From the NCBI GenBank assembly GCA_001038565.1, contig LFJO01000005.1:1186417-1250416 (forward strand): 64,000 bases of DNA, given 5' to 3'. The translations under genes and the position numbers were made by a program. Of this stretch, positions 11,267 to 54,232 are shown one piece after another. Under the pieces are notes generated by a model. The model worked only from the letters and a program-made list of their open reading frames with translations. It was not told the origin of the DNA and did no database searches. Every line of letters starts with the position of its first letter. Position 1 is the stretch's first letter. The DNA is from Alkalihalobacillus pseudalcaliphilus (GTDB lineage Bacteria; Bacillota; Bacilli; Bacillales; Bacillaceae_D).

Positions 11267-11294
11267 TTGACACTTCCAATGTAAGCGCTATAAT
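11267..11294 (+). promoter_or_regulatory. Strong SigA-type promoter with overlapping cre-like site
   Basis: TTGACA (11267-11272) and TATAAT (11289-11294) are both perfect, with a 16-nt spacer. TGTAAGCGCTATAA (11280-11293), overlapping the spacer and -10, matches the CcpA operator consensus at 13 of 14 positions. If CcpA binds, it should repress. Confidence 0.75.
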
Positions 11295-11300
11295 AAAGTT

Positions 11301-11414
11301 AAGCGTATGGTTTCTCTCCACTCCTATCCATACAATATATCTGTTTAGCTTAATGCTAAAGCCTAATTTGAAAACGCTTACGAAAGGCGTTTTGACAAAT
11401 TAGGTTCTTTTTTT
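11301..11414 (+). ncRNA. Predicted CU-rich small regulatory RNA
   Basis: This transcript of about 114 nt is defined by the promoter at 11267-11294 and a plus-strand terminator. Hairpin 1: GTATGG (11305-11310) pairs with CCATAC (11328-11333) around a 17-nt CU-rich loop containing CTCTCC and CTCCT, which are complementary to Shine-Dalgarno sequences. Hairpin 2: TTTAGC/GCTAAA (11344-11360). Hairpin 3 is the terminator, 11362-11404 plus a T run. No sizeable reading frame is present. The design is that of a trans-acting sRNA that blocks ribosome sites. I cannot match it to a named family. Confidence 0.65.
11362..11414 (+). terminator. Terminator of the small RNA
   Basis: CCTAATTTG (11362-11370) pairs with CAAATTAGG (11396-11404), and AAAACGC (11371-11377) with GCGTTTT (11387-11393). 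TTCTTTTTTT follows on the plus strand only. The 5' arm contains a second cre-like stretch, TGAAAACGCTTACG (11369-11382). Confidence 0.85.
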
Positions 11415-11441
11415 GCTTATTTTTTTGACCGGTCATTCAAG

Positions 11442-11481: not shown

Positions 11482-12774
11482 TTACACGTTTATTAATGTT
11501 TCAATATGTTCAAAGAAAGTTGGGTAGGAAACCGCAATCGCTTTACTATCTTGGATCACGACTTCTTGCTCCGCAATTAATCCAGCTACCGCCATGGCCA
11601 TCCCGATTCGATGGTCACCAAAACTATCAACGGTTCCACCTTTTAGAGTCGACTTTCCCGTTATAATCATTCCATCTTCTGTTGCTTCAATCGTTGCTCC
11701 GAGTTTTGAAAGTTCACTCACAACCGTATCTATACGATTCGTTTCTTTGACCTTTAATTCTTCAGCGTCTTTAATGATCGTTTGTCCTTCTGCTTGTGTA
11801 GCCAATACAGCAATGACTGGAATCTCATCGATTAAACGAGGAATGAGGTCCCCTTCAATAACGGTACCTTTTAATTGTGATGTTTCAATCGTGATATCTG
11901 CAACAGGTTCAGAACCAACCATCCGCTGATTAGCAATCGATACGCGAGCACCCATAGCTTCTAATACTTCCATAATCCCTGCACGAGTTGGGTTTAGGCC
12001 CACCTGAAGTAATGTACATGTACTTTCGGGAACAATCGCTCCTGCAACAAGGAAAAAGGCAGCAGAGGATATGTCACCTGGCACTTCAATATGTTGCCCC
12101 GTTAAAGTCTGTCCACCTTCGATAGATATGGATTTACCTTCACGTTGAATGCTAACACCGAACGTTTCTAGCATTCTTTCTGTATGATCTCTCGTTAAAC
12201 GTGGCTCCGTAACAGTCGTAACCCCTTCACTTTGCAATCCCGCAAGTAACAAAGCCGATTTCACTTGGGCACTCGCAACAGGTAAAGTATAGGTAATGGC
12301 CTTTGTCGCACCACCACGAATGGACAAAGGTGTATAATTCCCATTCCCACGTCCGTCAATTTGTGCTCCAAAACTTTTTAACGGCTCTGTAACTCGGGCC
12401 ATCGGTCGTTTAGCGATTGAATCATCACCGATTATCACAGAGTGAAAAGGCCTGGCCGCTAATATACCTAACATCAATCGAGTCGTTGTCCCTGAATTTC
12501 CGACGTCTAAAATATCAATAGGTTCTTTGAGACCATCCAAACCAACACCTTGGATTTCCACATTCTCGCCATCTTGCTTAATTTCGACGCCTAGTTTTCG
12601 GAAACAACGAATGGTACTCAAGCAATCCTCACCTGGTAAAAAGCCACTTACAGTCGTTTTTCCTTTGGCTATAGCACCAAACATGACCGCTCGATGTGAA
12701 ATTGATTTATCTCCTGGTATTTTAATCTGTCCACTGAGTCCAGTTTTGACTTTTGTAATCGTTGCAATGGTCAC
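11482..12774 (-). CDS. aroA: 3-phosphoshikimate 1-carboxyvinyltransferase (EPSP synthase)
   Basis: This 430-residue enzyme joins shikimate 3-phosphate and PEP in the sixth shikimate step. Diagnostic stretches are [12 protein letters not shown] (residues 19-30), [10 protein letters not shown] (about 92-101), [12 protein letters not shown] and KETNRI near 342. The start is GTG 12774, 7 nt after GGGGAG. It is last in the supraoperon, called aroE in older B. subtilis naming. Its product is used by aroC at the other end of the cluster. Confidence 0.97.
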
Positions 12775-15981: not shown

Positions 15982-17172
15982 TTATTCACCTCGCTCATAT
16001 TTCTGTAATGTATGAACATCTTTATCTCCACGACCTGATAAGCAAACTAAAATCAAATCGTCTTTATTTAATTTCTTCGCACGCTCAAATGCTTTCGCTA
16101 AAGCATGAGCACTTTCAATCGCTGGAATGATCCCTTCTTTTTCTGATAAAAACTTTAGTGCTTCTAAAGCTTGCTCATCCGTAACAGCCTCGTATTGAAC
16201 CCGGCCGCTTGTTGCTAAGTAAGCATGCTCTGGTCCTACACCAGGGTAATCTAAACCAGCTGAAATAGAATATGGCTCTTGAATTTGACCATGCTGATCT
16301 TGTAATAAAAGGGTTAAGGAGCCATGAATCACACCTGCTTTTCCTTTTGAAATCGTCGCTGCATGATGCTCGGTATTTACTCCAAGTCCTGCTGCCTCTA
16401 CTCCGATCAGACTTACCTCATCCTCTAAAAATGGGAAAAACGTTCCAATAGCATTACTACCGCCACCTACACAGGCAATGACCTCGTTAGGTAGCCTACC
16501 TTCTCTTTTTTGTATTTGTTTTTTGGCTTCATCACCAATAATTCGTTGAAAATCACGGACCATTTTCGGGTAAGGATGTGGTCCAACGACAGAACCAATC
16601 AAATAAAATGTATCCTCGGCATTCGCGACCCAGTAACGAATCGCTTCATTTGTAGCATCCTTTAAAGTCTGACTTCCAGAGGTCGCGGGTATAACCTCTG
16701 CACCGAGCAATTCCATTCGATACACATTGAGGGCTTGTCTTTCCATATCCTCGGCCCCCATAAACACCTTACATTCTAATCCAAACCTAGCAGCAATCGT
16801 AGCAGATGCCACACCATGTTGTCCTGCACCTGTTTCGGCAACGATTTTCGTCTTTCCCATTCGTTTAGCTAACAATGCCTGTCCGATTGCATTATTAAGT
16901 TTATGGGCACCTGTATGAAGTAAATCTTCTCTTTTTAAATAAACCTTGGCACCACCTAGCGCTTCTGATACATTTTTTGCGTAAGTGAGGGCTGTCGGCC
17001 TTCCTGCAAACTCATACAAATGATCCAAATATTCATCTGAAAAGAGAGAATCGTTTTGTGCCTGCTCTAAGGCAACCTCTAATTCCTCAATGACACTCAT
17101 AAGCGTTTCAGGTACATATTTACCACCAAAATCACCGAAGCGCCCCTTTTGATCTGGATATGTGCTTTTCAT
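15982..17172 (-). CDS. trpB: Tryptophan synthase beta subunit
   Basis: This 396-residue PLP enzyme condenses indole with serine. K91 in [10 protein letters not shown] carries PLP, and the phosphate loop GGGSNA lies near 227-232. Its start overlaps the trpF end by 41 bp, an unusually long overlap, and it runs to within one base of trpA. Confidence 0.97.
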
Positions 17173-17812
17173 TTTCTCTCATCCTCTCCACTAGTTCAGC
17201 TATCAATTGTTCTGACTTGAAGCCATCTTGTTCAATTCCACTTGAAACATCAATACCATCAACATGAAATGTTAATAACTGATTGATATTCGTATTGTTA
17301 ATCCCGCCAGCGATAAAAAGTGGCACTTGTTGCTTGTTGGCCTCCTGTTGATAAAGGGGAATTTCTCCCCAATCAAATCGTTGACCCGTACCTCCCCAAG
17401 CACCTTCGTGGCGATAATCAATGATAAATGCATCAACAAGCCCAGCAAAGCTTCCCATATAGGTGAGAGCCTGCTCATTGCTATGAATCACTTTCCAGAT
17501 TGGTTGTTTCACCTTTTTACGTAATGCTTCTACATATTGGGGAGACTCTGACCCATGACACTGTACGATGTCAAAAGGTACCTCTTCCATTGTTTGTTTA
17601 ATAACATCGATTTCTTCATTGACAAATAACGCGACTAATTGTTGCTTAATTGGTTCGTCAGTATATTTTTGCAGCCACTTTGTTACTTGCTCACTCGTAA
17701 CTTTTCGTTTACTTTCAGCAAAGACAAAACCAAGATAATCCGCCTCACTCTTCATCGTATTTTCGAGATCTTGACTTGAATGATTTCCACAGAGCTTAAG
17801 TTTTGGTAACAT
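17132..17812 (-). CDS. trpF: Phosphoribosylanthranilate isomerase
   Basis: This 226-residue TIM barrel isomerises PRA to CdRP. The catalytic Cys is in KLCGNHS (residues 6-12) and the catalytic Asp in [15 protein letters not shown] (about 133). [10 protein letters not shown] binds the substrate phosphate. It overlaps trpC by 17 bp and trpB by 41 bp, so the four genes are translationally coupled. Confidence 0.95.
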
Positions 17813-18569
17813 CTAGCTCACCACCAAGCAACTCATAAATCCCTTGCTCAGGACTACTTGCCCGCATGAATGTTTCACCAATTAAGATTGCTTTTGCACC
17901 TGCTAATGCAACAAAATCAATATCAGCCGCTGTGGCAATGCCACTTTCACTAACAACTAACGTATCACGTGAAATAAGTGGAATCATTTCTTTCGTTTGA
18001 GCTAGATCTGTTTTGAATGTTTTCAAGTTTCTGTTATTAATACCTAGAATCGCTGGTGTAAAACAAGCTAGTAAGATGTGTAAGTCCTCCTCAGAGTGGA
18101 CCTCCACTAGGCATTCCAACCCAAGTGAATAGCTATAGTCATAAAGCTCCTTCAATTCTTCAATTGGCAAAGTTCCAACAATTAATAAAAGGGCATCTGC
18201 TCCAATGTTTTTCGTTTCGTCTATTTGAGCAAAACTAATTATAAAATCTTTTCTCATAACAGGAATTTGGACATGCTGTTTAATTTGACTTAAATAATCT
18301 ACGGACCCTTGGAAATATGTCTGATCTGTTAAAACAGAAATCGCATCGGCACCGGCCCGCTCATACCCTAATGCAATTTGAAGTGGGTTAAAATCTTCTT
18401 TAATAATACCTTTTGAAGGGGAGGCTTTCTTTACCTCAGCAATTAACCCTATATGGCGACGACATTTATTCAAAGCTTCATATAATGAATAATGCTTCAC
18501 CTCCAACGGTTTTGGTTGAACCAGTTCAGCAATCTCTTTCTTTTTTGTAGCTAAAATTTGATTAAGCAT
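17796..18569 (-). CDS. trpC: Indole-3-glycerol phosphate synthase
   Basis: This 257-residue barrel has IAEVKKASPSKG (about 43-54), VMRKDF (about 104) and SESGIAT near 207, the signature of TrpC. It is monofunctional and not fused to TrpF. It overlaps trpD by 8 bp. Confidence 0.96.
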   Translation of the reverse strand: MLNQILATKKKEIAELVQPKPLEVKHYSLYEALNKCRRHIGLIAEVKKASPSKGIIKEDFNPLQIALGYERAGADAISVLTDQTYFQGSVDYLSQIKQHVQIPVMRKDFIISFAQIDETKNIGADALLLIVGTLPIEELKELYDYSYSLGLECLVEVHSEEDLHILLACFTPAILGINNRNLKTFKTDLAQTKEMIPLISRDTLVVSESGIATAADIDFVALAGAKAILIGETFMRASSPEQGIYELLGGELDVTKT

Positions 18570-19587
18570 GCTGTGACTCCTTTCTTACTTCTTGCAACTG
18601 TTGGAGGTGAGCGTAAACGCACCCTGTCTCAATTTGGTCACGAATAAAGGTTACCCCTTCTTTAATGGAAGCGACTTGGTCTGCTGCATATAAAGCAACA
18701 CCTGCATTTAAATACACGATTTCTTGGGCCGATTGATTCGCTTTACCTTGAAAGACTTCTAACATCAGATCGGCACTTTCCTTTGGATTTTGTACTTGAA
18801 TCTCTTCTAATTTACCCCTTCGCAAACCAAAATCCTCTGGACGTATCTGATACCGGCTTAACTGACCGTCTTTAATTTCGACTACATCTGTGTGTGTGGT
18901 AATGGAGCATTCGTCAAGCCCTTCTCCTCCAGAGACAACTAAGGAATGCTTCGTACCTAAACGCTTGAGGGCAGTAGCAACTTTTTCGATCATCGTTCCA
19001 TCATAAACACCTAAGAGTTGATGCTTGGCTCCTGCAGGATTTGTTAAAGGGCCTAACATATTAAAAATCGTCCGGAATCCTAATTCTTTTCGAGGCGTTA
19101 CCGCGTGCTTCATCGATTCGTGATACAGTGGTGCAAACAAAAAACATAAAGAGTGTGTTTGTAATGCTTGAGCCGCTTGTTCTGGTGTATGTTGAATATT
19201 AATAGATAAATATTCTAAAACATCAGCACTACCACTTTTAGAAGAAACCGCACGATTTCCATGCTTAGCGACCTTCACCCCGAGTGCCGCTAAACAAATG
19301 CCAACCGTTGTAGAGATATTAAATGTTCTTAAAGAGTCTCCACCTGTTCCACATGTATCTAATAATGCCTCATTTTCATAAGGTATTTTCATGGAGTGCT
19401 GGCGCATGGCTTTAGCAAATCCAGTAATTTCATCAACCGTTTCACCACGAAACCTCATAATGGTGACAAAACTTGCAATTTGTGAAGGGGTTGCTAAGCC
19501 ATTCATAATATCATGCATAACCGACTCAGCTTGTTCCTCGGTTAAAGTAACCCCTTGTAGGCACAACTCTAAATGATCTTTTAACAT
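18562..19587 (-). CDS. trpD: Anthranilate phosphoribosyltransferase
   Basis: This 341-residue protein has the GTGGD phosphoribosyl loop (about 79-83), KHGNRAVSSKSGSADVLE and the family HSLVVSGGEGLDE. ATG 19587 is one base after the trpE stop, with GAGGAGG within the trpE end. Confidence 0.96.
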   Translation of the reverse strand: MLKDHLELCLQGVTLTEEQAESVMHDIMNGLATPSQIASFVTIMRFRGETVDEITGFAKAMRQHSMKIPYENEALLDTCGTGGDSLRTFNISTTVGICLAALGVKVAKHGNRAVSSKSGSADVLEYLSINIQHTPEQAAQALQTHSLCFLFAPLYHESMKHAVTPRKELGFRTIFNMLGPLTNPAGAKHQLLGVYDGTMIEKVATALKRLGTKHSLVVSGGEGLDECSITTHTDVVEIKDGQLSRYQIRPEDFGLRRGKLEEIQVQNPKESADLMLEVFQGKANQSAQEIVYLNAGVALYAADQVASIKEGVTFIRDQIETGCVYAHLQQLQEVRKESQHA

Positions 19588-19588
19588 A

Positions 19589-21091
19589 TTATTTAACCTC
19601 CTCGAGTCCAAACATTTCCTCCGCCATTTGAACCGCCCTAATTAAGGCCTTCGCTTTATTTTGTGTTTCTTCATATTCTTTTTCAGGGTTAGAATCTGCC
19701 ACGATGCCTGCTCCAGCTTGAATGGAGGCCTTTCCTTCTTGTAATACAAGTGTACGAATCGCAATACATGAGTCAATATTGCCATCAAAACCTAAATATC
19801 CGATCGCACCTGCATAAATTCCCCTTCTAGTTGGTTCGAGCTCTTTTAATATTTGCATCGCTCTAATTTTCGGTGCCCCTGATACGGTTCCAGCTGGAAA
19901 AGAGGCCATTAAAGCTTCTAAAGGTTTAACGTCTTCACGTAGCTGACCACATACTTTAGAAATTATATGCATCACATGGGAAAAACGAGCTATTTCTAAC
20001 AAAGTAGGAATTTGTACGGAACCATACTTAGCAATACGACCTATATCATTCCTAGCTAAGTCCACTAACATATAGTGCTCTGCTCGTTCCTTTTCATCGG
20101 TTAATAAATCATCTGATAACTTTTGATCTTCTTCAAGGCTGTTCCCTCTTTTGCGTGTTCCGGCGATCGGGTGTATCTCCACATGTTGATCCTGCACTTG
20201 TACAAGTCTTTCTGGCGAACTACCTATGATCTCTAATCCATCAAGCTTTAGGTAGAATAAATAGGGAGATGGATTTACCTTTCGTAAAACACGATAAATC
20301 TCAATACCCGAACTTTTCACGTCCATCGAAAAACGTTGTGATAAGACCGCTTGAAAAATATCTCCGGCTCGAATGTACTCTTTTATTTTCAAAATATCCG
20401 CGATAAATTGATCTTTTTGATAATTAGAATCGACCTGTTCAAAACTCACTTCACGCTCAAAGGTTGGCGTTGGCTTTAAGGTTAACGGGCGAGCAGGTTC
20501 TTCTATTTTTTTTATCACTCGATTGACTTGTTCCACACTCTGAAAATATTGTTCTTGTAGCTTTTTGTTGTCATCAATTCGCTGATGAAAAATAATTGTT
20601 AACTCATTCTCTTGGTGATTAAAAGCGATAAGCGTTTCACAAATCAGAAACTGATAATAATTGGTATGACGGTGATAACAGGTTTCTAGACTCGGTTCGA
20701 TTGTTTCAATCGCGTCATAACTCATATAACCAACAGCTCCACCTTTAAAAGGTAGGTCAAGCTCTGACGGGGCTACATGAAGATAGGCCATCGTTTTTTC
20801 ATAAAGCTCAATAAAACTAGCCGCTTCTAAAAGCGTCTCCTCACATTTATTTCTAGTCACAAATGAGCCTGATATTTCTTTCATTTCATATAGAGGATTT
20901 AAACCAATAAACGAATAATTTGACCATAGCGAGGCCTCATCATGGCTCTCTAACAAAAAATGTGCTTCGTCTTGTAATTGATGGAACATTTGAATGGGGG
21001 TTAAACTATCCGCGAAAAGCTTAGCCGCTACCGGGATCGTTTGATACGTTTGGGCCAGTGCTGAAAAACTGGCAAAAGAGGTCTTTATCAA
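19589..21091 (-). CDS. trpE: Anthranilate synthase component I
   Basis: This protein of about 500 residues makes anthranilate from chorismate. The chorismate-binding core includes ARNDIGR, FPAGTVSGAPK and GAIGYLG in the C-terminal half; the N-terminal half has the LLES inhibitor-site motif for tryptophan feedback. The start is probably TTG 21091, 8 nt after AGGAG, since the GTG three codons earlier is part of the ribosome site. No trpG is in the operon; as in B. subtilis the amidotransferase is presumably the shared PabA elsewhere. Confidence 0.96.
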   Translation of the reverse strand: MIKTSFASFSALAQTYQTIPVAAKLFADSLTPIQMFHQLQDEAHFLLESHDEASLWSNYSFIGLNPLYEMKEISGSFVTRNKCEETLLEAASFIELYEKTMAYLHVAPSELDLPFKGGAVGYMSYDAIETIEPSLETCYHRHTNYYQFLICETLIAFNHQENELTIIFHQRIDDNKKLQEQYFQSVEQVNRVIKKIEEPARPLTLKPTPTFEREVSFEQVDSNYQKDQFIADILKIKEYIRAGDIFQAVLSQRFSMDVKSSGIEIYRVLRKVNPSPYLFYLKLDGLEIIGSSPERLVQVQDQHVEIHPIAGTRKRGNSLEEDQKLSDDLLTDEKERAEHYMLVDLARNDIGRIAKYGSVQIPTLLEIARFSHVMHIISKVCGQLREDVKPLEALMASFPAGTVSGAPKIRAMQILKELEPTRRGIYAGAIGYLGFDGNIDSCIAIRTLVLQEGKASIQAGAGIVADSNPEKEYEETQNKAKALIRAVQMAEEMFGLEEVK

Positions 21092-50987: not shown

Positions 50988-52820
50988 TTAGATTCCTTTA
51001 ACGAATGATTTCTCTTTTATATAATTTGTTAATTCAATCGTCATTTCATATCGTAGAAATGGTGTGATTAAATAAATACCGTTAAAATATTCTGTCGCTG
51101 CATCGATAAGGTTTTTAGCAATATTTATACCTTCTCTCGTAGACTTTTCCTTATCACCGTCACAACTTTTCATCGTTTCGCGAATTGAGTCGGTCAATTT
51201 AATGCCGGGTACTTCATTATGCAAAAATTCAGCATTTCTAAAGCCTGTCAATGGCATAATTCCAATATAAATAGGCTGAGTAATATGACTCGTTAAAGAT
51301 GCGAGCTCGATAATTTGCTGTTCATTATAAATCGGTTGGGTCATAAAATAATCAGCACCACTATCAATTTTTTTCTCCATTCGGGCAACAGCCTTATCCA
51401 AATGGCGTACATTCGGATTAAAAGCAGCACCTACCGAAAAGTTTGCTTTTTGACCTAAATCCTTTCCTGAAAAAGAAATGCCCTCATTTAATTGCTTAAT
51501 CATCGTAATGAGCTGAAATGATGTCATATCATACACAGAAGTAGCACCTGGAAAATCACCAATTTTAGTTGGGTCACCTGTAATCGCTAAAAGATCATGT
51601 ATTCCTAATGCATGTAGACCCATTAAATGTGATTGAAGCCCGATTAAGTTTCGATCTCGACACGTGACATGAACGAGTGGTCTCGCTTGATAACGCTCTT
51701 TCATTAGAGAACCTAATGCCATGTTGTCAACTCGAGGTGAAGCTAATGAATTATCGGCTAATGTAACAGCATCAACACCCGCATCTGTCAGTGCCTTAGC
51801 CCCTGTCAAGAACTTCTCAATCGATAATTTTTTCGGCGGATCAAGCTCGACAATAATGGATGAGCGCTTTTGTACAATATCTGGTAATGTTTCTCTTGCT
51901 GGAGGCTCTTCTTTTCGAATCGATACCGGTATCTCTTTCGTCTTTACTCCAATTCTTGCAACAGGTTGATAGCTCTTCGCAATAGCAGCAAAAGCTTGAA
52001 TTTGTGCCGGCGTTGTCCCACAACACCCTCCGATCAATCGAACCCCCTGTTCAATAAAAGCCCTACCCATTTCGGCGAAATAATCTGAATTCGATTGATA
52101 GTAATAACGTCCATCACGAAAATCTGGCAAGCTAGCATTTGGATAAACAGCTAAATAGGCTTGCTCTGAAATAGTCAGTGTTTCAATCGATTTTAACATA
52201 TGGAATGGTCCCATTCGACAATTCAAACCAACCACATTCGCACCAGCTTCAATTAATTGTTCATAGACTCTATCTAACGTAATTCCACCTTGCATAACAC
52301 CAACCTCACCAATTGATACGTTGACAATTAAAGCTTGATCGGTTAATTTTCTCGCAAGTTGGGTCGCCATTAAAGCTTCTTCAAAGTCATAAAACGTTTC
52401 TAAAAGTAACCCATCGACACCTTCCTTAAGCAATTCATTCATCTGTTCAAAAAAAGCCGACTTAATTTCTGCCAATGTCCATTCTTCCGTTGAATAACGT
52501 CTAATCCCACCAACTGTGCCTAAAACATAAATATCCTCGTTGGCTAATGCCGAAGCAATCTGAACTCCAGCTTGATTAATTTCTTTAACTGATTGAGCTA
52601 GCCCGTATTTTTCTAGCTTTAATCGATTTGCTGCATAGGTGTTCGTTTGAATAACAGTAGCGCCAGCATCGATATAAGCTTGATGAATATGAGCGACTTT
52701 CTCAGGAGCTGAGAGGTTTAACTCTTCAAAACATTGGTCAATCCCTTGCTCATATAATAACGTCCCCATTGCCCCGTCACCGACAAGAATTTCTTTTTCT
52801 AACCTCTCGATTAAGTTCAA
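50988..52820 (-). CDS. yitJ: Bifunctional homocysteine S-methyltransferase / methylene-THF reductase YitJ
   Basis: This 610-residue fusion has an N-terminal homocysteine-methyltransferase domain (1 to about 290) with zinc ligands in GLNCRMG and GGCCGTTP, and a C-terminal MTHFR barrel (about 320-610) with DPPKK and FMTQPIYNEQQ. It reduces methylene-THF to the methyl-THF used by MetH. The start is TTG 52820, overlapping the metI stop (TTGA) after GGAGAG. Confidence 0.94.
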   Translation of the reverse strand: MNLIERLEKEILVGDGAMGTLLYEQGIDQCFEELNLSAPEKVAHIHQAYIDAGATVIQTNTYAANRLKLEKYGLAQSVKEINQAGVQIASALANEDIYVLGTVGGIRRYSTEEWTLAEIKSAFFEQMNELLKEGVDGLLLETFYDFEEALMATQLARKLTDQALIVNVSIGEVGVMQGGITLDRVYEQLIEAGANVVGLNCRMGPFHMLKSIETLTISEQAYLAVYPNASLPDFRDGRYYYQSNSDYFAEMGRAFIEQGVRLIGGCCGTTPAQIQAFAAIAKSYQPVARIGVKTKEIPVSIRKEEPPARETLPDIVQKRSSIIVELDPPKKLSIEKFLTGAKALTDAGVDAVTLADNSLASPRVDNMALGSLMKERYQARPLVHVTCRDRNLIGLQSHLMGLHALGIHDLLAITGDPTKIGDFPGATSVYDMTSFQLITMIKQLNEGISFSGKDLGQKANFSVGAAFNPNVRHLDKAVARMEKKIDSGADYFMTQPIYNEQQIIELASLTSHITQPIYIGIMPLTGFRNAEFLHNEVPGIKLTDSIRETMKSCDGDKEKSTREGINIAKNLIDAATEYFNGIYLITPFLRYEMTIELTNYIKEKSFVKGI

Positions 52821-53941
52821 ACGCTCTCCTCCTTCACTAGCTCGGCTGTTTTTGCAAATGCTTGCTCTAAATCATCAATTAAATCCTCATGATGCTCAAT
52901 TCCTACTGAAAAACGTAAAAGGCGATTACAGACACCATTGGCCACGCGAATCTCTTCCGGAATATCCATATGAGTTTGTGTCGCAGGATACGTCATTAAA
53001 CTTTCTATACCACCTAAACTTTCTGCAAATGATATCAATTGTAGCTGTTGTAAAAATGGATTGACCATATTTTCATCGAATATTCTGAATGAAAGCATCC
53101 CACCTTTACCTGCATAAAGAACGTCTGTTACAAGTTCATGCTGCTCTAGATAACGAACAATCGCTTTTGCATTTTCCTGATGCTTTTGCATTCTTAAAGA
53201 TAAAGTTTTCATTCCCCGAATAAGTAACCATGAGTCAAACGCTGGTAAGGTGCCGCCGATCCCGTTATGGTAGTAACCAATTTGTTCACATAATTGGTCC
53301 CCTTTTGCTACAATGAGTCCAGCAATTAAATCATTATGTCCACCGAGATATTTTGAAGCACTGTGAATGACAACATCAGCACCATCTACTAAAGGTTGCT
53401 GTAATAAAGGTGTTAGAAATGTATTATCAACAATTAATAGAAGATTATGTCTTTTCGATATTCGAGCTAGTTCTTGAATTGATACTTCTTGCATCAATGG
53501 ATTCGTTGGTGTTTCAATAAAAATCGCTTTTGTACTTTCTGTAATCGCATTCTCTACTTGTTCAAATTGTCTTGGGTCTACATATGTAAATCTAATCCCC
53601 CATTTTTTCCAACCTTGTTCAAACAATCGATAAGTTCCGCCATACAGATCACTTGAACAAATAATCTCATCACCTTGTTCAAAAAGTGAAAATACCGTCT
53701 GGATTGCAGCCATACCAGAGCTACAAGCAAAACCTTTCTCACCTTCTTCTAATAAGGCAATCGAATTTTCTAATACTTCTCTCGTTGGATTCCCTGTACG
53801 TGCATAGTCATACCCCGTCGACTCACCAATACCAGTATGTCGATAAGCTGTCGATAAATAAATCGGTGTATTAATAGTCCCTGTTTTATCATCTAATCGA
53901 TTTCCTATTTGAGCCAATGTTGTTTCTAAATGCTTATTCAT
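52817..53941 (-). CDS. metI: Cystathionine gamma-synthase / O-acetylhomoserine thiolyase
   Basis: This 374-residue Cys/Met-metabolism PLP enzyme has LSTAYRHTGIGESTGYDYARTGNPT near the start. The PLP lysine is in HSASKYLGGHND (about 197). It resembles B. subtilis MetI closely through its whole length. It makes cystathionine (or homocysteine) from activated homoserine. No metC follows; yitJ and metH come next instead. It is under the SAM riboswitch. Confidence 0.93.
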   Translation of the reverse strand: MNKHLETTLAQIGNRLDDKTGTINTPIYLSTAYRHTGIGESTGYDYARTGNPTREVLENSIALLEEGEKGFACSSGMAAIQTVFSLFEQGDEIICSSDLYGGTYRLFEQGWKKWGIRFTYVDPRQFEQVENAITESTKAIFIETPTNPLMQEVSIQELARISKRHNLLLIVDNTFLTPLLQQPLVDGADVVIHSASKYLGGHNDLIAGLIVAKGDQLCEQIGYYHNGIGGTLPAFDSWLLIRGMKTLSLRMQKHQENAKAIVRYLEQHELVTDVLYAGKGGMLSFRIFDENMVNPFLQQLQLISFAESLGGIESLMTYPATQTHMDIPEEIRVANGVCNRLLRFSVGIEHHEDLIDDLEQAFAKTAELVKEESV

Positions 53942-53982
53942 ACGCTCCCCACTCCTTTTATCGCCATCATTTGTATTTGTGC

Positions 53983-54143
53983 TAAAACAAAAACACCTTC
54001 TTCAAAAATTAAGAAGAAGGTGCAACATTTATCATACAACCCCTTCTTATCTTTCAAGCATAAGCTTGATGGATTTAGCACCTGACCAAATTGGCTGGTT
54101 GCTGAGACTTCTTCGGGCCATTCCCTCCATCTCTCTCGATAAG
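53983..54143 (-). promoter_or_regulatory. SAM-I riboswitch (S box) of the metI operon
   Basis: On the minus strand the aptamer runs CTTATCGAGAGAG (from 54143), GATGGAGGGA, TGGCCC, GAAGTCTCAGCAACC, AGGTGCTAAATCC and closes with GATAAG (54051-54046). The expression platform is a terminator: GCACCTTCTTC and GAAGAAGGTG (54023-53994), then TTTTTG. AGATAAGAAGG can pair with the 5' terminator arm as antiterminator. High SAM should stop transcription before metI. Confidence 0.96.
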
Positions 54144-54232
54144 AAAACAAAAATATATTCGATTAAAAAGATAAAAATTGTATTGAACTAAAATTACAAT
54201 AATTCTAACATAATTGCAAGGGTTTTTTATCT

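Follow-up and report, generated by a model that had tools for sequence, protein, structure and literature searches.

A conserved promoter–terminator unit beside the EPSP synthase gene

The window, the whole 64,000-nt stretch of the Alkalihalobacillus pseudalcaliphilus genome analysed here, holds on its plus strand, at 11267-11414 and between two minus-strand genes, a promoter, a stem-loop and a terminator that bracket about 114 nt without a gene. The features of this locus, together with one distant candidate target, are as follows.

11267..11294, plus strand: sigma-A-type promoter, TTGACA-16-TATAAT, 12 of 12 consensus matches
11279..11294, plus strand: cre-like site (candidate CcpA operator) overlapping the -10, one mismatch, ATGTAAGCGCTATAAT
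11301..11414, plus strand: predicted small RNA, about 114 nt, start placed from the -10, fold z = -5.0, conserved family-wide
11305..11333, plus strand: 29-nt core hairpin, identical in all family copies read, its stem not kept class-wide
11305-11310/11328-11333, plus strand: core stem GTATGG/CCATAC, 6 bp
11311-11327, plus strand: CU-rich loop, 17 nt, TTTCTCTCCACTCCTAT
11311..11326, plus strand: seed, 16 nt, TTTCTCTCCACTCCTA, near-invariant in the class and complementary to target ribosome sites
11344..11360, plus strand: small second hairpin from the fold, present in many relatives and missing from the Fictibacillus-like ones
about 11361..11414, plus strand: intrinsic terminator from the fold, stem-loop and T-run
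11368..11383, plus strand: cre-like site in the terminator arm, one mismatch, TTGAAAACGCTTACGA
11482..12774, minus strand: neighbouring gene, EPSP synthase (3-phosphoshikimate 1-carboxyvinyltransferase), NCBIfam TIGR01356
52817..53941, minus strand: candidate target, metI-type methionine biosynthesis gene, NCBIfam NF006095

The original prediction was of an unannotated small RNA, with a consensus promoter and a plus-strand terminator around some 114 nt devoid of a sizeable frame, and in all these respects our analysis agrees with it. No open reading frame of at least 60 aa overlaps 11267-11414. Since promoter-like sites (at least 9/12) are expected at 2.5 per kb in shuffled sequence, the motif by itself says little; a promoter of this quality lies just 5' of the core at 84 of 85 distinct named loci and at all 64 class-level loci (shuffled means of about 8), and a T-run follows the core at every one of these 85 and 64 loci. 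A simple terminator scan made no call at the terminator in the window, probably because its stem is interrupted. The predicted RNA folds at -31.5 kcal/mol, compared with -17.0 for shuffles. We take the small RNA at 11267-11414 to be real, with its conservation as the decisive point and its transcription predicted from the sequence. As a separate observation, a palindrome, TTGACCGGTCA, lies at about 11424-11438, between this terminator and the terminator hairpin of EPSP synthase.

In most carriers the RNA adjoins EPSP synthase or tyrA. One of these genes was seen beside it at 125 loci, lying upstream on the same strand in 96 and on the opposite strand in 29 (28 named loci; the window's genus included). 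The opposite-strand arrangement suggests an in-place inversion of the unit. This inversion is seen in part of the window's family, where the order of both flanking genes is unchanged.

Distribution and sequence conservation

The window's own genome has a single copy of the RNA, which was matched in all 41 genomes of the family, and the 29-nt core shows no difference among the family copies read. A search at the level of the order, allowing up to three mismatches, found the core in 72 of 397 genomes, with the mismatches at the outermost bases. The exact 27-mer occurs at 94 loci in named genomes, among them Alkalihalobacillus, Halalkalibacter, Shouchella, Fictibacillus, Marinococcus and Geomicrobium, and likewise Aneurinibacillus, Brevibacillus, Paenibacillus, Melghirimyces and Kroppenstedtia, as well as others. 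Alkalihalophilus pseudofirmus OF4, a non-pathogenic laboratory strain, is also a carrier. In a sample of the class Bacilli, a 21-nt core with up to three mismatches was matched in 130 of 250 genomes and 62 of 106 genera; a reversed-pattern control gave only a handful of matches, and a few of the three-mismatch matches are chance. Viral contigs gave no match. A divergent copy was looked for near EPSP synthase in 30 families of non-carriers and not found, the best candidate having at least 9 mismatches of 26. Some genomes, at least four, have two seed-RNA copies at different places.

An alignment of 40 sequences from the class places the conservation in TTTCTCTCCACTCCTA, which is near-invariant while its flanks vary freely. 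The invariant part is a linear 16-nt seed, UUUCUCUCCACUCCUA. The median distance from the end of the -10 to the GG preceding the seed is 13-14 nt, so that the seed would start roughly 8-10 nt into the RNA. We considered the hairpin as the conserved unit and rejected it class-wide, since stem pairing is no better than in column shuffles (57.1% versus 56.7% of paired cells); what is ancient is therefore the linear seed, the hairpin being confined to the window's wider group. The original prediction held that a 6-bp hairpin presents the loop, and it made its case depend on both being conserved in relatives: the seed within the loop is kept throughout the class and the hairpin in the window's wider group, whereas class-wide the stem is lost.

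Seed matches at ribosome sites in the window's family

We searched five genomes of the window's family for the complement of the seed, using patterns and selected stretches, with gene identities assigned by NCBIfam. The complement, AGGAGUGGAGAG, was found at the ribosome sites of DAHP synthase, homoserine dehydrogenase (hom), serC, serA, pheA and metI-type genes. Near-matches at ribosome sites fell on serA, DAHP synthase-chorismate mutase and hom, then on serC, pheA and hom repeatedly; AAAGGAGTGGAGAGACATG, at serA, is an example from the window's own genome. The total number of near-complements in the five carrier genomes shows no excess over a reversed-pattern control, and the targeting signal, as far as sequence can tell, is which genes are matched and not how many near-complements there are. 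The original prediction had asked for a target search with the loop and had named no targets; ribosome sites of amino-acid genes are what such a search returned.

For serA, hom, DAHP synthase, serC and metI, the real loop pairs better than loops shuffled at constant composition, which rarely equal it. The metI-type gene in the window has the ribosome site AGGAGTGG at about 53949-53956, where the predicted duplex with the seed reaches -22.5 kcal/mol and 3 of 300 shuffled loops do as well. This gene lies downstream of a SAM riboswitch at 54044-54145 (52817-54145 for the whole, minus strand) and may be under double RNA control. Neither trpB nor tyrA was convincing as a target against shuffled loops. 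In the window, at 15982-21091 on the minus strand, the ribosome sites of the trp-operon genes trpB and trpE match the seed over a shorter length, 9 nt each, trpB being at the level of shuffled loops.

Carriers and non-carriers compared

The genes hom, serC and DAHP synthase, chosen after their discovery in the window's family, were compared as orthologs between 17 carriers from eight other families and 13 non-carriers of the same order, a set without Paenibacillaceae, Brevibacillaceae and Alicyclobacillaceae. Start codons were picked by Shine-Dalgarno strength in the same way on both sides. The mean duplex between seed and ribosome site is -19.2 kcal/mol at 51 carrier sites and -11.7 at 38 non-carrier sites. 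The difference holds for DAHP synthase (-20.6 versus -10.5 kcal/mol, p = 2e-5), hom (-19.8 versus -13.2, p = 6e-4) and serC (-17.3 versus -11.4, p = 1.5e-3), p-values that ignore kinship and are too small, because the non-carriers belong mostly to one clade and the genomes are not independent events. At least seven contiguous bases complementary to the seed are present at 40 of 51 carrier target sites and at 2 of 38 non-carrier ones, against a background of 7-nt seed matches in 18-24% of neighbouring genes. The ordinary Shine-Dalgarno match to 16S at the tested genes is not stronger in carriers. The Fictibacillus-like carriers show weak pairing at all three genes.

Genome-wide counts of GGAGTGGAG-ATG, used as a control, are similar in carriers and non-carriers, with no enrichment in the former. 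As read by eye from N-termini, some of these sites in carriers lie at serA, pheA (also by NCBIfam), metI/metY and EPSP synthase, and among the non-carrier sites read in the same way amino-acid-synthesis genes were not recognised. A further observation concerns the RNA's own promoter: a seed complement of at least 9 nt is found there at 7 of 153 loci, compared with 0.2 expected in shuffles. Such complements of 9-12 nt (e.g. AGGAGTGGAGAG) lie within or beside the promoter, in the spacer at three loci and upstream of the -35 at one.

Could the match be a relic of shared ancestry, that is, AGGAGTGG sites inherited by carriers and changed in the non-carrier clade, with the RNA real and trans-acting on other targets? 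A protein tree, which places most non-carriers in one clade and has the RNA lost separately next to the Fictibacillus-like family, lends this some support. However, neighbouring genes at the same loci are unbiased (means of -11.1 and -11.6 in the two groups), GGAGTGG occurs in none of 145 carrier neighbours, and the complement is retained though its position and length differ between lineages. We consider this reading improbable. More improbable still is a reading in which the RNA is an independent element and the GGA-rich sites are there for a protein, for example CsrA (GGA motifs) or TRAP (GAG/UAG repeats). The GGA and GAG repeats within AGGAGUGGAGAG would suit such a protein, but they match the seed exactly over as many as 14 nt, and the sites occur in carriers of the RNA and rarely at the same genes of non-carriers.

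The fixed short distance of the core 3' of the promoter would also fit an element that works as DNA, for instance an operator directly 3' of the promoter, with no functional RNA made; this is very unlikely given the T-run 3' of the core in every locus checked and the presence of the seed complement on the sense strand, at the ribosome sites of other genes. A translated leaderless micro-ORF with a conserved peptide (MVSLHSYPY, from ATG GTT TCT CTC CAC TCC TAT CCA...) is hardly credible, as the ATG that opens the core in the window's group is missing from several families in which the seed persists (TCTGATTTC..., TCTGGTTTC...), the end of the frame differs between copies and silent positions are invariant; a conserved micro-peptide is excluded by the copies that lack the ATG.

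cre-like sites

Both cre-like sites in the window differ by one mismatch each from WTGNAANCGNWNNCWW. With up to one mismatch, such sites are found at the promoter in 19 of 85 named and 24 of 64 class loci (1.4 and 1.15 in shuffles), and in the downstream part in 51 of 85 and 14 of 64 (2.25 and 2.0 in shuffles). By sequence, the promoter carries a candidate for the cre site that marks the CcpA regulon, and such sites are enriched, though not present in all loci; some carriers have none. The two sites, over the -10 and in the terminator arm, are as the original prediction described them, and both recur well above chance. The overlap with the promoter suggests repression by CcpA, and the site in the terminator arm could act as an additional roadblock.

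Proposed mechanism

The best explanation, and one that we regard as likely, is a trans-acting small RNA silenced by CcpA, whose seed would block the Shine-Dalgarno sequences of amino-acid-biosynthesis mRNAs. The RNA would be made from its own strong promoter and ended by its own terminator. Its near-invariant 5' seed UUUCUCUCCACUCCUA is predicted to pair with the Shine-Dalgarno region AGGAGUGGAGAG just 5' of the start codon in the mRNAs for DAHP synthase-chorismate mutase, homoserine dehydrogenase, serC and serA, and probably pheA and metI/metY. As the pairing would extend over the Shine-Dalgarno region and almost to the start codon, the simplest effect would be a block of initiation, with ribosome loading prevented. 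When preferred sugars are plentiful, CcpA would bind the cre at the promoter (in many lineages also that in the terminator arm) and silence the RNA. When they are gone, the RNA would be made and amino-acid synthesis turned down, so that less central metabolite would flow into serine, aromatic and threonine/methionine synthesis. The conserved unit, the seed, its match to ribosome sites in carriers and the enrichment of cre-like sites are computed results. Transcription, repression as the direction of effect, the action of CcpA and the physiology are what we infer from the sequence.

Relation to known small RNAs

A covariance search of the window with Rfam 15 found only the SAM riboswitch elsewhere and left the small RNA unmatched at the gathering threshold; in a relaxed search of the RNA (to E = 10) the best sub-threshold matches were far below the cut-off. 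We found no prior description, by sequence or topic, in the open-licence PubMed Central literature. As there is no Rfam 15 family, no sequence match in the open literature and no named family among those considered whose defining features it shows, the RNA forms a new family of a kind already known, the anti-Shine-Dalgarno small RNAs, and is unusual in the invariance of its seed and in its span. The anti-Shine-Dalgarno character proposed for the CU-rich loop is supported at the level of sequence: the seed complements, in carriers and rarely in non-carriers, the ribosome sites of a coherent set of unlinked genes, and this match is conserved together with the RNA.

RsaE/RoxS of Staphylococcus and Bacillus pairs through C-rich single-stranded stretches with the Shine-Dalgarno sequences of metabolic mRNAs (PMC4409812), and a C-rich stretch is predicted to act alike in the new RNA. 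However, the latter lacks a CCC run (its longest run of C is two, where RsaE/RoxS is defined by runs of C), occupies another genomic place and has amino-acid biosynthesis genes as the targets found. The Rfam model of RsaE/RoxS does not match it at gathering or up to E = 10. RosA and RsaI are small RNAs repressed by CcpA (PMC8216469), as is predicted here, but their G-rich regions bind C-rich small RNAs, whereas in the new RNA the seed is C/U-rich and GGGG does not occur; the absence of any run of GGG or longer in 11301-11414 sets it apart from such sponges. FsrA and other C-rich small RNAs of B. subtilis also pair with mRNA targets through C-rich regions (PMC8216469). A similar pairing region is predicted in the new RNA, although the Rfam search shows no sequence relation and signal and targets differ. 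FsrA is linked to iron.

GcvB of Gammaproteobacteria directs one conserved seed at the ribosome sites of many amino-acid genes, and the new RNA is predicted to work alike. GcvB has a GU-rich seed, depends on Hfq and acts mainly on transporters; the new RNA differs in its unrelated sequence, its C/U-rich seed and its phylum.

RsaE/RoxS has been described as the sole trans-acting small RNA besides 6S common to S. aureus and B. subtilis (PMC4409812). The RNA described here has a wide span, with Alkalihalobacillus, Fictibacillus, Aneurinibacillus, Brevibacillus, Paenibacillus, Melghirimyces and Kroppenstedtia among its named matches. It probably acts as a sugar-controlled switch that turns amino-acid synthesis off, one not described before and lost from the Bacillus subtilis-like branch. 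With less assurance, we lean towards seeing in it an ancestral riboregulator of Bacilli that went unnoticed because of that loss, that couples amino-acid synthesis to the carbon catabolite state by way of a near-invariant 16-nt seed and whose sequence conservation is matched by few trans-acting regulatory RNAs of Gram-positive bacteria. The candidate regulon comprises early steps in the synthesis of serine, aromatic and aspartate-family amino acids. If true, this would be a direct post-transcriptional route from carbon catabolite control to amino-acid synthesis, and an illustration of how an old regulator can escape notice once the model species has lost its copy.
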